Source: Spirochaetaceae bacterium (GTDB lineage Bacteria > Spirochaetota > Spirochaetia > DSM-27196 > SLAA01). Taken from it: a DNA stretch of 51,320 nt. Each line of letters opens with the position of its first letter. Position 1 is the stretch's first letter. The stretch spans positions 1 to 51,320 of the forward strand of contig PWQX01000148.1 of NCBI GenBank assembly GCA_003556605.1, read 5' to 3'. The position numbers and the translations under genes were made by a program. Of the stretch, positions 17,089 through 23,110 are shown piece after piece. The notes beneath the pieces are model-generated. The model was not told where the DNA came from and did not search any database. It saw only the letters and a program-made list of their open reading frames with translations.

Positions 17089-18471
17089 CTACAGCATACC
17101 GCGCGGATCCAGGAGCTCGTTCAGCCGCTCCTCGGGCAGCACGCGCTCTTCACGTGCGACATCCCGGATGGTGCGCTGTTCGCGATACGCGCGATACGCG
17201 AGTTTTGAAGCTCTGTCATAACCAATCTCCAGGGCGAGCGGCGTTACAAGCGCCAGCGACCACTCAATCCAGTACTTACAGCGGTCACGATCGGCAGTAA
17301 TGCCTGTGACGCACCGCTCGGCGAGCGCGGTACTCGTCTCAGCCAGCAGCCGCAACGAGCTCAACGTCTCGTACGCGATGAGCGGATGCATCATGTTCAG
17401 CTGCAAGGGACTGTTCTGCCCGCCGATCGTGACCGCGACCGCCTTACCGTTTACGTGTGCCGCTACCTGAATGACCATTTCCGGGATCACCGGGTTCACC
17501 TTTCCCGGCATGATTGAACTGCCGGGCTGCAAGGCCGGCAGCGTGATCTCGCCGAGCGCCCCGCGCGGCCCGCTTGCCAAAAGCCGAAGATCGTTGGCGA
17601 TTTTCATGAGACTTGTCGCATAGGTGTTCAGCATGCCCATGAGCTCCACTTGGGCGTCGCGGGCGGCGATGCCCTCAAAGATGTTGTCAGCACGGCGAAA
17701 CGCAATTCCGGTCTCGCCGGCAATTCCGGCGACGGCGCGCTCGGCGAACTCGGGGTGGCAGTTGATTCCGGTACCGATGGCGGTACCGCCGAGCGGCAGC
17801 TCTTCCAGCCTGGGCAGCGCGGCGGTGAGCCGAGCGATTCCTTTCGCGGTCTGATCGGCAAACGCGCCGAATTCCTGGCCTAGGGTCATCGGCACGGCAT
17901 CCTGCAGATGCGTGCGCCCGAGCTTAACCACATCGGCAAGCTCGGTGCTCTTTGCGCTAAAGGCGTGCCGCAGGTGCTCCATCGCGCTGATAAGCGTACC
18001 GGCCTCCATGCGGCCGGCGATCTGGATTGCAGTGGGGATAACGTCGTTAGACGACTGCCCGCGGTTCACGTGGTCGTTGGGGTGTACCGGCGCGCGCGTG
18101 CCGAGCTCCTGACCAAGCAGCTCGTTGGCGCGATTGGCGAGCAGCTCGTTGATGTTCATGTTCCAGGAGGTACCCGAGCCGGTTTGAAACACGTCGATCG
18201 GAAACTGTTTGTCGTGTTGTCCGGTAAACACTTCGCCCGCGGCGCTCACGATTGCCTCTGCCAGGTGCCGATCGATCAATCCAAGCTCGGCGTTCGTTCG
18301 AGCAGCGTGTTTCTTGATGTATGCCAGAGCGCGAATCAACGACGGCGGAATGCGCAGCTCGGAAACGCCGAAGTTCTCAGTCGCGCGCTGGGTTTGCGCG
18401 CCCCAGTACGCGCTTGATGGAATCGCAACTTCACCCATGGAGTCGGACTCGTAGCGCTGCTGTTTTCCCAT
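17089..18471 (-). CDS. fumC: Class II fumarate hydratase
   Basis: 460 residues, standard length for iron-independent FumC, which interconverts fumarate and malate. The superfamily signature GSSIMPGKVNP is at 317-327, with the catalytic serine on this mobile loop; H188 in GRTHLQDA is the matching general-acid region. TGSGTSWNMNINE (97-109) and SSNDVIPTA are also typical and favour fumarase over aspartase. AGGAGG lies 10 nt before the ATG. It is divergent from the malate dehydrogenase pair, placing two consecutive cycle steps side by side. Confidence 0.94.
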   Translation of the reverse strand: MGKQQRYESDSMGEVAIPSSAYWGAQTQRATENFGVSELRIPPSLIRALAYIKKHAARTNAELGLIDRHLAEAIVSAAGEVFTGQHDKQFPIDVFQTGSGTSWNMNINELLANRANELLGQELGTRAPVHPNDHVNRGQSSNDVIPTAIQIAGRMEAGTLISAMEHLRHAFSAKSTELADVVKLGRTHLQDAVPMTLGQEFGAFADQTAKGIARLTAALPRLEELPLGGTAIGTGINCHPEFAERAVAGIAGETGIAFRRADNIFEGIAARDAQVELMGMLNTYATSLMKIANDLRLLASGPRGALGEITLPALQPGSSIMPGKVNPVIPEMVIQVAAHVNGKAVAVTIGGQNSPLQLNMMHPLIAYETLSSLRLLAETSTALAERCVTGITADRDRCKYWIEWSLALVTPLALEIGYDRASKLAYRAYREQRTIRDVAREERVLPEERLNELLDPRGML

Positions 18472-18614: not shown

Positions 18615-18638
18615 AGCGGCTATATAGGAGATTACTGT

Positions 18639-19562
18639 ATGGCAGAAATAGGGATTATTGGAAGCGGCAACCTCGGAGCAAACGCCGCGTTTTTTATGGC
18701 CGAGAGCCAGGTTGGGGACGTCTGCCTGTACGATCTGCAAGCAGGGTTATCTTTCGGAAAGTCGCTTGACTTGATGGAAGCGGCTCCGGTGCGCGGGTAC
18801 CGGGCGGCAGTGGACGGCAGCGACGAGCTGGGGACGGTACTTGATACGCAGGTGTTGATTATCGCCGCCGGGGCGATTCGCGAGCCGGGTCAAGGCAGTG
18901 ACGACCTGCTTGTCACTAACGGCGCCGTAATCAAGGAGATCGCAGCGGCAGTTAAGGATTACGCCGGTGTCGTGATCATCGCAACCGAACCGGTTGATCC
19001 GTTGACCGCACTGTTCGGCCGCGAATCCGGAATAGAACCTCGGCGCGTGTTCGGGTTCAGCGGCATGCTCGATGGTGCGCGGGTGCGGCTGAAACTTTCG
19101 CGAGAGCTCGGCGTTGAGCCTGAAGATATAGACGCGTTGCTGATTGGGCGCCACGATGAACGGCTGATCGCGCTACCGAACTATACCCGGGTCTCCGGGA
19201 TACCGGTCCTGCAGCTCGTGGACGAGGTCCGTCTGCACGAGCTCGTTGCCGAGGTCGGCAAAGCCGAGAGCTTAATTCTTGATCTGGCCAAGAAGACAAA
19301 CTCGTTTTACGGCCCCGCCGCGGCACTTGCCGAGCTTGCCGAGGCGGTAGTGTGGGACAGCGGGCGCGTTACCTCGGTTTCGGTGATGCTGAACGGCGAA
19401 TACGGCATGAACGCCGGAGCGATCGGCCTGCCGGCGATCATCGGCGGTGAAGGGATTCGGCGGGTACTGCTGCCGCAGTTGTCTGAGGATCAACTGTCTC
19501 GGCTACGCCGCTCGGTAGATGAGGTTGTAGAAATGGTGGACAGGGCAGGAGGGCAGGCATGA
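18639..19562 (+). CDS. Malate/lactate dehydrogenase homologue with altered active site
   Basis: 307 residues with the LDH/MDH fold: Rossmann motif GSGNLG (8-13) and an acidic NAD-binding residue in VCLYDLQ. It aligns along its length with the next gene product. Compared with MDH numbering it keeps R81, the Asp and Arg of LDGAR (D145, R148) and a histidine (H172) in the catalytic-His position. It has S87 in place of the second loop arginine and E117 in place of the asparagine of the NP motif. GGHGDS has become GRHDER. It may therefore be inactive on malate, act on another 2-hydroxyacid, or serve as partner of the intact paralogue. The stop overlaps the next start by 4 bp. Start chosen from GGAG at 18627-18630. 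Confidence 0.8.
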   Translation: MAEIGIIGSGNLGANAAFFMAESQVGDVCLYDLQAGLSFGKSLDLMEAAPVRGYRAAVDGSDELGTVLDTQVLIIAAGAIREPGQGSDDLLVTNGAVIKEIAAAVKDYAGVVIIATEPVDPLTALFGRESGIEPRRVFGFSGMLDGARVRLKLSRELGVEPEDIDALLIGRHDERLIALPNYTRVSGIPVLQLVDEVRLHELVAEVGKAESLILDLAKKTNSFYGPAAALAELAEAVVWDSGRVTSVSVMLNGEYGMNAGAIGLPAIIGGEGIRRVLLPQLSEDQLSRLRRSVDEVVEMVDRAGGQA

Positions 19563-20491
19563 AGAAAGTCGCGATTATTGGAGCAGGAAACGTCGGCGCT
19601 ACTACCGCGTACTTCGTGGCGAAACAGCGAATTGCCGACATCGTACTGATTGATGTCGTGGAGGGGTTGGCCCAGAGCAAGGCTGAGGACTTTCTGCATG
19701 CCGGTCCGTTGCAGCGCTATAACGTAGAGATAACCGGTTCTAACGACTACGCAGCCATTAGAGATGCCGACGTTGTGGTTCACACCGCCGGTGTTCCGCG
19801 CAAACCCGGCATGGATCGTATGGACTTGATGAAGACCAACGCCGGTATCGCCCGGATCGCGGGCCGGGCGATCGCAGAGCACGCGCCGAACGCGGTTGTG
19901 ATCGCGGTGGCTAATCCGCTCGACATTATCGCCTTGGCGCTCCTGCGTGAGACCGGCTTCGCGCTTCGCAATGTCGTCGGGATGGCCGGCATCCTCGACT
20001 CCACTCGCTTTCGCTACTTCATTGCCGCTGAGCTTGGGGTAAAGCCCGAAGACGTGAACGCGATGGTGCTCGGCGGTCATGGTGACAGTATGGTCCCGCT
20101 TGCGCGCTACAGCTCGGTAGGTGGTTTCCCGCTGACTGAGTTGCTTGATGCCGAGACGATTGAGCGTCTGGTGAAGCGCACCCGCACCGGCGGCGGAGAG
20201 ATCGTAAGCTATCTGAAGAAGGGCAGTGCTTTCTATGCCCCCGGTGCGGCGGTTGCACAGATGGTAGCGGCCGTAGTGCTCGATCGCAGGCGCCTGGTCC
20301 CGGCGTCGGCATATCTGCGCGGCGAGTACGGACACCGGGGCATCTTTTTGGGTGTGCCGGTTGTTCTCGGCAAGAACGGAGTAGAGCGCATTGTGGAGCT
20401 GGACCTCACCGCCGATGAGCAGGCCGCGCTCGACGCGTCGGCCGAACACGTTCGCGAAGGCGCGAACGAGCTCGACGCGCTGCCGGCTTAG
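19559..20491 (+). CDS. mdh: Malate dehydrogenase (LDH-like type)
   Basis: 310 residues. It oxidises malate to oxaloacetate with NAD. Rossmann motif GAGNVG (8-13) with Asp at the end of the second strand (LIDVVEG). The substrate-binding set is complete: R81 and R87 (RKPGMDRMDL), N119 (ANPLD), D147 and R150 (LDSTR), and catalytic H174 (GGHGDS). Arginine at 81 favours malate over lactate. ATGA overlap with the preceding degenerate homologue indicates translational coupling. It faces citrate synthase, the next enzyme of the cycle, convergently. Confidence 0.92.
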   Translation: MKKVAIIGAGNVGATTAYFVAKQRIADIVLIDVVEGLAQSKAEDFLHAGPLQRYNVEITGSNDYAAIRDADVVVHTAGVPRKPGMDRMDLMKTNAGIARIAGRAIAEHAPNAVVIAVANPLDIIALALLRETGFALRNVVGMAGILDSTRFRYFIAAELGVKPEDVNAMVLGGHGDSMVPLARYSSVGGFPLTELLDAETIERLVKRTRTGGGEIVSYLKKGSAFYAPGAAVAQMVAAVVLDRRRLVPASAYLRGEYGHRGIFLGVPVVLGKNGVERIVELDLTADEQAALDASAEHVREGANELDALPA

Positions 20492-20535: not shown

Positions 20536-21678
20536 TTATCGTTTGCTCATCGGCACAACGGTTTTGTCGCGCTCGCCAACGTACAAGGCCTTGGGCCGGT
20601 AGAGCCGGTTGTCCTGGCGCTGCTCGAGTACATGCGCGAGCCAGCCCGGTGCGCGCGCCATCGCGAATATGGGTGTGAACAGCCGCGTGGGAATCTCGAG
20701 CAGCCGATACACCGCGCCGGAAAAGAAGTCGACGTTCGGGTAGATCGGCTTGCCTTTTTCTTCCATGCGTTCGCGGAACGTGCGCTCTACCTCCTTGAGG
20801 ATCTGGTAGTAGCGGAAGTCGCTCTTCTTCTCCGAAAGCCGGTAGAGGTAGTCCTCCATGATGACCGCGCGCGGGTCTTTGGCCTTATAGACGCGGTGAC
20901 CCATGCCCATGATCTTGCGCTTCTCCTCGAGCGCTTTGTTGACCCACGCTTCGGCCTGCCCGGGCTGCCCGATGTCATCGACCATCTCCATTACTTTCTC
21001 GTTTGCCCCGCCGTGCAGGCTTCCGAACAAGGCGCCGATCGCGGCCGAGATCGCAGAGTAGCAGGTGGAGATTGTGGAAGCAACCACGCGGGCGGTAAAG
21101 GTGGAGGCGTTGAAGCCGTGCTCGGCGTGAAGAATCAAGCAGTCGTCCATGATCTTCGCCTCGAGCTCACCGGGCTCGTGCCCGCTCAGCATGTACAGGA
21201 AGTTCGCGCCGTGCGACAACGACTTACTGGGACGTACGTAGCTGTGCCCGGACTTATATCGTTCGTATGCCGCTACCACGGTGGTCAGCTGGACCACTTG
21301 GTGCAGCGTGTCGCGGCAGTTGCAGTACGCCGAGTGCTCTATCTTGTGCTCCACGTACCCGCTGAGATAGGCTACAACCGATTGGAGCAGTTCCATGGGG
21401 TGCGAGTCGTTCGGAAACTCCTGAATCATGCGCCGAATCGGCTCGCCGATGTCGCGCGAGGCGCGCATATGAGTCTGAAACGACACAAACTCGCCTTCGT
21501 TGGGCAACTTCCCGTACAGCAGCAGATATGTTACCTCCTCGAACGTGCAGTGCTCCACGAGGTCGCCGATGCTGTAGCCCTCGTAATACAGCTTTCCGTT
21601 TTCACCGTCGACCTTACAGATCCTGCTCTCGGCGGCGATTACGCCCTCCAAACCCTTAGAATACTCGACATTCGACAT
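20536..21678 (-). CDS. gltA: Citrate synthase
   Basis: 380 residues, the short dimeric/Gram-positive-like citrate synthase. It condenses acetyl-CoA with oxaloacetate. Catalytic residues H222 (SLHGGANEKV), H261 (MGMGHRVYKAKDPRA) and D317 (NVDFFSG) are present. The ATG at 21678 is preceded by GGGAGGAG at 7 nt. It is the last gene of the eight-gene sdh-suc-lpd operon, starting 16 bp after the lpd stop. A methylcitrate synthase role cannot be excluded from sequence, but the context argues for the citric-acid cycle. Confidence 0.94.
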   Translation of the reverse strand: MSNVEYSKGLEGVIAAESRICKVDGENGKLYYEGYSIGDLVEHCTFEEVTYLLLYGKLPNEGEFVSFQTHMRASRDIGEPIRRMIQEFPNDSHPMELLQSVVAYLSGYVEHKIEHSAYCNCRDTLHQVVQLTTVVAAYERYKSGHSYVRPSKSLSHGANFLYMLSGHEPGELEAKIMDDCLILHAEHGFNASTFTARVVASTISTCYSAISAAIGALFGSLHGGANEKVMEMVDDIGQPGQAEAWVNKALEEKRKIMGMGHRVYKAKDPRAVIMEDYLYRLSEKKSDFRYYQILKEVERTFRERMEEKGKPIYPNVDFFSGAVYRLLEIPTRLFTPIFAMARAPGWLAHVLEQRQDNRLYRPKALYVGERDKTVVPMSKR

Positions 21679-21694
21679 AATCGTTCTCCTCCCG

Positions 21695-23110
21695 CTATGT
21701 GCTGTGAATCGCACGCCCCGCGACGCTGAGCGCGGCCTCTTTTACGGTTTCGCTCAAGGTGGGATGGGCGTGGCAGATCCGTGCGATGTCCTCCGCTGCC
21801 CCGCCGAACTCCATCACCGTCACGATTTCGCTAATCAAGTCGGACGCCCACGGCCCGACGATATGAGCGCCTAAGACGCGGTCGCTACCTTCTGCCGCGA
21901 TGATCTTCACCATTCCGCCGGGGCTGCCCATCGCGAGCGCGCGTCCGTTAGCGGCGAACGGAAAGCGCCCCACGCGATAGGCGATGTTGTCTTGTTTGAG
22001 CTGCTGCTCGTCGCGCCCAACGGCAGCCGCTTCGGGAAAGGTGTAAACCACGTTCGGTATCGCCCCGTAGTTGACGTGACCGGGGCGACCGGCAATGCAC
22101 TCGGCGACGGCAACGCCTTCTTCCTCTGCCTTGTGCGCCAGCATCGGGCCGTGAATGAGGTCGCCAATGGCGTAGATACCGGGAGCGGTTGTTTGATAGC
22201 GTTCGTCCACCCGCAGGTGTTTCCCGCCCTCGAGTCGCTCGACTCCGAGCCCGTCAAGGTCTATCCCGTTGGTGTAAGGACTTCTGCCGACCGCGACGAG
22301 CACCTTATCCGCCTCCATAGTCCGTTGCTCGCCGCCCTCGCCGGCCACCGTTACCACCACGCCGGTCTTGCCTGTCTTGGCGCCGGTGATTTTGGTCTCG
22401 AGGTGGAACTGCAGTCCCTGTCGCGCAAGCTCCTTCTGCAGTGCTTCCGCCGCCTCCGCATCGAACCCCGGAAGGATGCGCGGCATGATCTCAACGACCT
22501 GCACCTCGCTGCCGAGCCGTGCCCAAACGCTTCCGAGCTCAAGCCCGATCGCCCCGGCGCCGACCACAATCAGCCGCTTCGGGATCTGCTTGAACGCGAG
22601 CGCCTCGGTGGAGCTCACGATATGCTCACCGTCGAACGGCATGAACGCGAGCTCGGCGGGGACGCTGCCGGTTGCAAGCACGATGCTCGCGCCCTTCAGT
22701 GTATGGGGCGCCGCGTTTGCCGAACGCACCTCCACGGTATTGCGCTCAGGTAGCGCGCCTGCGCCGTGCACCACCTCTACCTTGTTGTGCTTCATGAGGC
22801 TGCGCAGCCCGCCGGTGAGTTTCCCGACGACCTTGTCCTTGCGTTTCATCATTGCCTTCAGGTCTAAGCTGATGCCGTCGATTGAAATGCCGTGCTCGGA
22901 CGCTTCGAAAGCGGCTTGCGCAAATCGTTCGCTGGAGTCGAGCAGCGCCTTCGAGGGTATGCACCCAATATTGAGGCAGGTGCCGCCGAGTGCCGATTCT
23001 TTTTCCACAAGCGCTACCGAGAGCCCAAGCTGCGCCGCGCGAATCGCGCAGACGTACCCGCCGGGCCCGGCGCCTAAGACTACGATATCGTATTGCTTGT
23101 TCTCAGCCAT
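21695..23110 (-). CDS. lpdA: Dihydrolipoyl dehydrogenase (E3)
   Basis: 471 residues. This flavoprotein reoxidises the lipoyl arm of 2-oxoacid dehydrogenase complexes with NAD. FAD motif GAGPGG (13-18), redox disulphide C45/C50 (GGTCLNIGCIPSK), NAD motif GAGAIGLELG, and C-terminal catalytic pair H449/E454 (HPTLSE). It lies immediately downstream of sucB, so it probably serves the 2-oxoglutarate dehydrogenase complex, and perhaps others. GGGAGAG precedes the ATG. Confidence 0.96.
   Translation of the reverse strand: MAENKQYDIVVLGAGPGGYVCAIRAAQLGLSVALVEKESALGGTCLNIGCIPSKALLDSSERFAQAAFEASEHGISIDGISLDLKAMMKRKDKVVGKLTGGLRSLMKHNKVEVVHGAGALPERNTVEVRSANAAPHTLKGASIVLATGSVPAELAFMPFDGEHIVSSTEALAFKQIPKRLIVVGAGAIGLELGSVWARLGSEVQVVEIMPRILPGFDAEAAEALQKELARQGLQFHLETKITGAKTGKTGVVVTVAGEGGEQRTMEADKVLVAVGRSPYTNGIDLDGLGVERLEGGKHLRVDERYQTTAPGIYAIGDLIHGPMLAHKAEEEGVAVAECIAGRPGHVNYGAIPNVVYTFPEAAAVGRDEQQLKQDNIAYRVGRFPFAANGRALAMGSPGGMVKIIAAEGSDRVLGAHIVGPWASDLISEIVTVMEFGGAAEDIARICHAHPTLSETVKEAALSVAGRAIHST

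Follow-up and report, generated by a model that had tools for sequence, protein, structure and literature searches.

A tandem pair of malate dehydrogenase paralogues in spirochaetes and other bacteria: a candidate heteromeric, trans-activated enzyme

Malate dehydrogenase (MDH) is a textbook homo-oligomer, and to our knowledge a dedicated non-catalytic subunit has not been described for any bacterial MDH. In an open-access library, nothing relevant was found on heteromeric or pseudoenzyme forms of the enzyme. In the lactate dehydrogenase (LDH)/MDH family, the helices αB, αC and α2F constitute what we take, from established structural knowledge, to be the main dimer interface. Duplications within this family presumably gave the LDH and MDH of Cryptosporidium and other apicomplexans, which we regard as MDH-derived paralogues and which are adjacent in Cryptosporidium according to the PDB entry name of 2fn7. 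In these parasites each copy is active with its own substrate, whereas in the pair presented here catalytic residues are gone from one copy, and the tandem is ancient and fixed.

In LDH-like MDH, the dimer is the active unit (PMC4250060). According to Iorio et al. (PMC9486893), residue 68 of one subunit lies against Arg171 of its neighbour. In a type 3 MDH (4CL3), Glu68 forms a salt bridge to Arg171, which is retained in the active site, while His68 in allosteric LDHs leaves Arg171 free to swing out (PMC9486893). Known type 3 members (TIGR01763; Chloroflexus 4CL3, Thermaerobacter 7AOB) are homodimers or homotetramers with Glu or Gln at position 68. The allosteric bacterial L-lactate dehydrogenases and the 'intermediate group' MalDH (Archaeoglobus fulgidus; PMC9486893), which possess His68, are also homo-oligomers. 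A functional analogy, and no more than that, is offered by the mitochondrial NAD-isocitrate dehydrogenase (yeast IDH1/IDH2, human IDH3), which two sources (PMC5241874, PMC7752914) present as a citric-acid-cycle dehydrogenase under allosteric regulation, composed of a catalytically altered paralogous subunit and a catalytic subunit. This enzyme has an unrelated fold and catalyzes another reaction, and for MDH both the heteromer and any effector are predictions.

The window analyzed here is the whole stretch of 51,320 nucleotides from a Spirochaetaceae bacterium, with spirochaete metagenome-assembled genomes (MAGs) as close relatives; from the names of these MAGs, we would guess that the relatives come from soda-lake sediments. 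The initial annotation reported two adjacent MDH homologues of 307 and 310 residues, here called A and B, overlapping by ATGA. Both open reading frames were verified on the forward strand (Table 1).

Table 1. Positions within the window of the A/B gene pair, its neighbours and the residues discussed in the text (equivalent LDH positions in brackets)
Feature	Position	Strand	Remark
Divergent neighbour, class II fumarase/aspartase family	17089..18471	-	
Ribosome-binding site of A	18626..18631	+	aggaga; from sequence
Gene A, MDH-like subunit of the Asn119→Glu clade, 307 aa	18639..19562	+	ATG start; LDH/MDH fold predicted intact
A Glu47 (LDH 68)	18777..18779	+	Glu in 79/79 A proteins
A Arg81 (LDH 102)	18879..18881	+	retained in 95% of A proteins
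A Ser87 (LDH 109, normally Arg)	18897..18899	+	genus-specific
A Glu117 (LDH 140, normally Asn)	18987..18989	+	change that defines the A clade
A Asp145 to Arg148 (LDH 168 and 171)	19071..19082	+	Arg148 invariant across A
A His172 (LDH 195)	19152..19154	+	retained in 98% of A proteins
Ribosome-binding site of B	19547-19552	+	aggagg; within A
Overlap of A stop and B start	19559..19562	+	ATGA
Gene B, apparently catalytic LDH-like malate dehydrogenase, 310 aa	19559..20491	+	full catalytic set
B His47 (LDH 68)	19697..19699	+	His in 70/74 paired B, 1/120 solitary MDH
B Asp86, in mobile-loop motif GMDR[ML][DE]L	19814..19816	+	motif in 69/74 paired B, 0/120 solitary MDH
B Asn119 (LDH 140), catalytic	19913..19915	+	
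B Arg150 (LDH 171), substrate-binding arginine	20006..20008	+	proposed to be held in trans by A Glu47
Convergent neighbour, citrate synthase	20536..21714	-	followed by lpd, sucB, sucA, sucD and sucC up to 29513

A and B are 34% identical, and each of them has matches to Pfam Ldh_1_N and Ldh_1_C. B exceeds the two NCBIfam thresholds for MDH (406.5 vs 351.85 for TIGR01763; 415 vs 283 for NF004863) and A falls below both (233 vs 351.85 and 266 vs 283, respectively). The key residues are as first described for B (R81, R87, N119, D147, R150, H174 and GGHGDS) and for A (R81, S87, E117, D145, R148, H172 and GRHDER). Position 47 equals LDH position 68, since a true LDH placed in the same alignment for checking the numbering (L217) displays H47, Q81, T224 and I228, the published LDH signature. 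In LDH numbering, B carries Arg102, Arg109, Asn140, Asp168, Arg171, His195 and Pro250, as expected of MalDH type 3, which it also resembles in fold and length. B nevertheless departs from this type by a histidine instead of an acidic residue or Gln at position 68, and by its co-inherited partner. His68 is the residue of the allosteric LDHs (its contact with the neighbouring Arg171 is taken from PMC9486893), but unlike those enzymes and the 'intermediate group' MalDH, B combines the MDH-type Arg102 and Pro250 with a partner carrying Glu68. The L-lactate dehydrogenase signature, Gln102 with Ile250, is found in neither copy as both possess Arg81 and Pro. A shares with MalDH type 3 the fold, the NAD-binding fingerprint and its best structural matches; it differs in the absence of the catalytic Asn140, which is replaced by Glu, Asp or Gly in 79 of 79 sequences. 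The spirochaete genome (99.4% complete) has no Ldh_1 genes other than A and B, and malate:quinone oxidoreductase (Mqo) is also absent from it. B must therefore be the citric-acid-cycle MDH of this organism, barring an unrelated enzyme.

The tandem recurs well beyond the window. In a scan of species genomes, the best 80 loci were kept, so that the taxonomic spread given here is a minimum. The comparison comprises 79 A sequences, 74 paired B and 120 solitary MDHs, nearly all from MAGs, and about 44 A/B pairs are non-redundant. Among the matches listed, B lies directly downstream of A on the same strand at all 79 A loci, and no A was seen apart from B in any of the varied gene neighbourhoods. The recurrence of the arrangement at 79 loci in several phyla argues against chance. 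The pairs are full length in 74 of the 79 cases, the remaining five being affected by a contig end, a frameshift or an insertion. The spacing from the A stop to the B start, always on the same strand, has a median of +8 and equals -4 in 19 of 74 pairs. Within the order of the window, nearly every genome with an A match holds the tandem. Outside this order, the matches listed place the pair in other spirochaetes, Desulfobacula/Desulfotignum, Opitutia, Acidobacteria, WOR-3, another Thermodesulfobacteriota genome and unclassified bacteria. Wider surveys indicate that the pair is rare in Desulfobacterales and in the class Opitutia, where two adjacent matches occurred in the seed genome only of each sample. 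At the phylum level, Spirochaetota beyond the order of the window mostly have one canonical MDH, or none at the survey threshold. Two deviations from the usual layout can be mentioned. In one genome (G130; L116/L210 locus), a gene for a predicted membrane protein of 314 aa is inserted between A and B (L210 2088-3032). In two MAG loci (L047 6783-7684 and L077 5176-6193), B is apparently frameshifted, by sequencing error or true inactivation.

In a tree rooted with LDH, the A sequences form a clade with support of 100/98, and A together with paired B form a clade (98/97) which leaves the solitary MDHs outside. Paired B alone is not firmly one clade, being a single branch in 27% of the bootstraps of this tree. 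A larger tree of 116 rows was also built. The A and B subtrees match in order: WOR-3 with L084, L089 with L097, Opitutia with Acidobacteria, L061, and spirochaetes with Desulfobacteraceae. Distances among A correlate with those among B (r = 0.83), as expected for any co-inherited genes. The mirrored trees thus point clearly to a single ancient tandem duplication in an MDH ancestor, which evidently gave A and B and was followed by their co-inheritance across several phyla.

The initial annotation singled out Ser87 and Glu117 and raised the question of whether this form is a conserved clade, with simple decay as the meaning of substitutions unique to one genome. The two positions behave differently. 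At the position of the catalytic Asn119, the 79 A sequences comprise 75 Glu, 2 Asp, 2 Gly and no Asn; here the clade across phyla is confirmed and uniqueness to one genome fails. Ser87, in contrast, is found only in the genus of the window (5/5 congeners), so that conservation across the clade does not extend to this residue and the objection partly applies to it. As a consequence of this confinement, Ser87 is ruled out as the key change. GRH takes the place of GGH in the majority of A proteins from spirochaetes and Desulfobacteraceae and is missing from the WOR-3, L084, L089 and L097 types.

Other catalytic residues (numbered as in B) are lost from subsets of A. Arg87 is missing in the genus of the window and in L041, L058, L115 and L209, Arg81 in L058, L115, L116 and L209, and His174 in L115. 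Asp147 is replaced by Asn in one family-level clade and by Ser or Thr in Acidobacteria/Opitutia. These losses beyond Asn119 took place independently in separate A lineages. Two residues are invariant among the A sequences examined, Arg148 (LDH Arg171) and Glu47 (LDH 68). The pair at L209 1475-3318 (G059) has a very degenerate A, devoid of Arg81, Arg87 and the normal glycine motif (GANDMG), in which Glu117 and Glu47 are nevertheless retained; it adjoins a normal His47 B.

Could A simply be a decaying pseudogene or a recent degenerate duplicate? The lost catalytic residues and the confinement of Ser87 to one genus would fit. However, the clade is conserved across phyla, the frames are intact and dN/dS within close pairs is low, mostly 0.05-0.2 for A (about 0.11) compared with about 0.05 for B, even if A changes about twice as fast as B. 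The AlphaFold2 model of A (pLDDT 90.4, pTM 0.90) presents an intact MDH fold, for which the closest PDB structures are tetrameric MDHs (Z about 40). Neither frame disruption nor relaxed selection nor isolated occurrence, as expected of a pseudogene, characterizes A. Conservation and selection rule out simple decay, and this explanation as a whole is extremely improbable. Judging from the substitution patterns, A is under purifying selection, but apparently not for catalysis.

A second explanation is that A remains an active dehydrogenase, re-specialized for another 2-hydroxyacid or an amino substrate whose new group is recognized by Glu117, and located beside B for pathway reasons only. Arg81 (95%), Arg148 (100%), His172 (98%) and, mostly, the NAD fingerprint are retained across A, and since most A proteins also hold Arg87, some activity of A is conceivable. 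Malate-related substrates moreover vary with context (LarA-type racemase homologues at L071 and L084, fumarase and malic enzyme at L097). We consider this explanation unlikely: the catalytic Asp, Arg109 and even His195 have been lost independently while Glu117 and Glu47 were kept, no A stands apart from B across the different neighbourhoods among the matches listed, and the reciprocal changes at the interface of B, presented below, would be left unexplained. That A is not an MDH by itself is very likely.

When paired B are compared with solitary MDHs, 8 of the 10 strongest differences are located on helices αB, αC (and the short helix after αC) and α2F, and the other two in the mobile loop. 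The clustering of B-specific positions on these helices is significant (Fisher p = 5e-5, in a test that groups related sequences and assumes independent positions). This observation bears on the idea that A and B form separate homo-oligomers, A being a free regulator (for example a sink, a sensor or an RNA/protein-binding protein) co-expressed with B. Tandem expression alone can explain co-inheritance. On the other hand, the substitutions of paired B cluster on helices contacting the neighbouring subunit, and if B paired with itself, His68 would loosen its own Arg171. Separate assemblies are thus quite unlikely, and a physical A:B complex is probable. As a stand-in for the complex, a read-through chain from A through its stop into B was modelled (L009 and six other loci have A and B in one frame); this fused-chain model gave a pTM of 0.52, a value that carries no information on the interface.

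Helix αC is asymmetric within the pair, since A keeps the ancestral residues at positions 40, 45, 46 and 47 and B has departed from them. At position 47, Glu is present in all 79 A, His in 70 of 74 paired B, and solitary MDHs have Glu (103), Gln (16) or His (1). The four exceptions among paired B are Glu in L071, L076 and L084, basal pairs with Glu47 in both subunits, and Gln in L061; the His68 switch is therefore not universal to the pair. The sole solitary protein with His47 (L197 1468-2406, reverse strand) is an MDH-like sequence on a long branch; it belongs to a genome in the sample of the class Opitutia and has an unusual loop, GRTRQPGMTREEL.

The same asymmetry would be produced by a neutral ratchet, in which complementary degeneration after duplication makes both copies necessary, and A becomes a structural or stability subunit with no regulatory gain. 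The complementary pattern at position 68 and on helix αC (ancestral residues in A, lost from B), the faster evolution of A and the older Glu/Glu state of the basal pairs agree with such a scenario, and relaxed constraint, rather than regulation, may lie behind the His68 of B. Nonetheless, position 47 of B is specifically His (70/74), which is not a random outcome and is the residue of allosteric LDHs, and Glu117 of A is nearly fixed, beyond expectation for a vestigial pocket. We regard the ratchet as rather unlikely.

The explanation we favour is a heteromeric MDH with A and B as its two subunits, in which A, itself non-catalytic, probably supports the active site of B in trans. The proposal of the initial annotation that A is a non-catalytic or re-specialized partner agrees with the monophyly of the A clade, its obligate linkage to B, the mirrored trees, purifying selection and the reciprocal changes in B; its suggestion of hetero-oligomers is one that we also infer. 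With Glu68 in A and His68 in B, the most economical interpretation assigns residue 68 of A to the active site of B and sets that of B against the disabled site of A, which requires A:B pairing across the residue-68 interface. The subunits would meet where residue 68 of one contacts Arg171 of the other, as a heterodimer or an A2B2 tetramer, either way with a single functional active site for each A:B. Glu68 of A would form a salt bridge to Arg171 of B and keep this active site ready for the substrate, and His68 of B would face Arg171 of the disabled A site. B alone, with His68 against Arg171, would drift to an inactive, T-like state of the kind seen in allosteric LDHs and be weak or sigmoidal, so that A would be an obligatory activating subunit. 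On balance, we lean towards this role of Glu68 in trans. More speculatively, the pocket of A (Arg81, Arg148, His172, the NAD motif and the new Glu117) may bind a regulatory metabolite which tunes B; an analogue with an amino group, for instance aspartate, would go well with its glutamate. Ligand sensing by A is a tentative proposal. Equally tentative is the complete scheme of an ancient, obligate heteromeric MDH whose disabled paralogue provides Glu68 in trans and whose remade pocket (Glu117) turns an unregulated homo-oligomer into a ligand-regulated A:B enzyme.

Like IDH3, the pair comprises a paralogous subunit with catalytic residues lost, co-inherited with a catalytic subunit. We see in it a candidate, amenable to testing, for a heteromeric MDH activated in trans. 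If correct, this would represent a new mode of regulating a central step of the citric acid cycle. The residue which separates allosteric from non-allosteric enzymes would be split between two subunits, and the pair would constitute a natural experiment on the origin of allostery in the LDH/MDH family, a long-running question. Annotation would also be corrected, as A genes are otherwise labelled as a second malate dehydrogenase.

The initial annotation also raised the possibility that A tunes flux into the adjacent cycle operon, an idea for which proximity is the only argument. In the window, gltA-lpd-sucB-sucA-sucD-sucC converges on the pair from the other strand and the fumarase/aspartase gene diverges from it, which places A/B outside the cycle operon. 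The product of this divergent gene (17089-18471, reverse strand) scores above the aspartate ammonia-lyase subfamily cut-off and below the fumC and aspA equivalog cut-offs. Outside spirochaetes, general malate or cycle genes accompany the pair in some contexts, with no other fixed neighbour: the L071 and L084 pairs adjoin homologues of LarA-type (malate) racemases and L097 adjoins fumarase and malic enzyme. The LarA-family proteins which flank the WOR-3-type pair (L071 4444-9284; L084 6984-8390) have LarAH6, a nickel-dependent malate racemase, as their nearest family but do not reach the NCBIfam cut-off, and this flanking suggests D/L-malate metabolism around the pair.

Lastly, several spirochaetes of the order contain a second MDH-like tandem, with degeneration of both genes (L204 283-2105, L205 1454-3297, L206 1393-3341, L207 949-2792 and L208 1351-3320). 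The first copy is nested in the A clade and keeps Glu117 and the His; the second shows Asn119→Gln and Arg150→Trp and is devoid of the catalytic His. In L205 and L208, this tandem is followed by a FAD_binding_5 gene of the molybdenum hydroxylase type.
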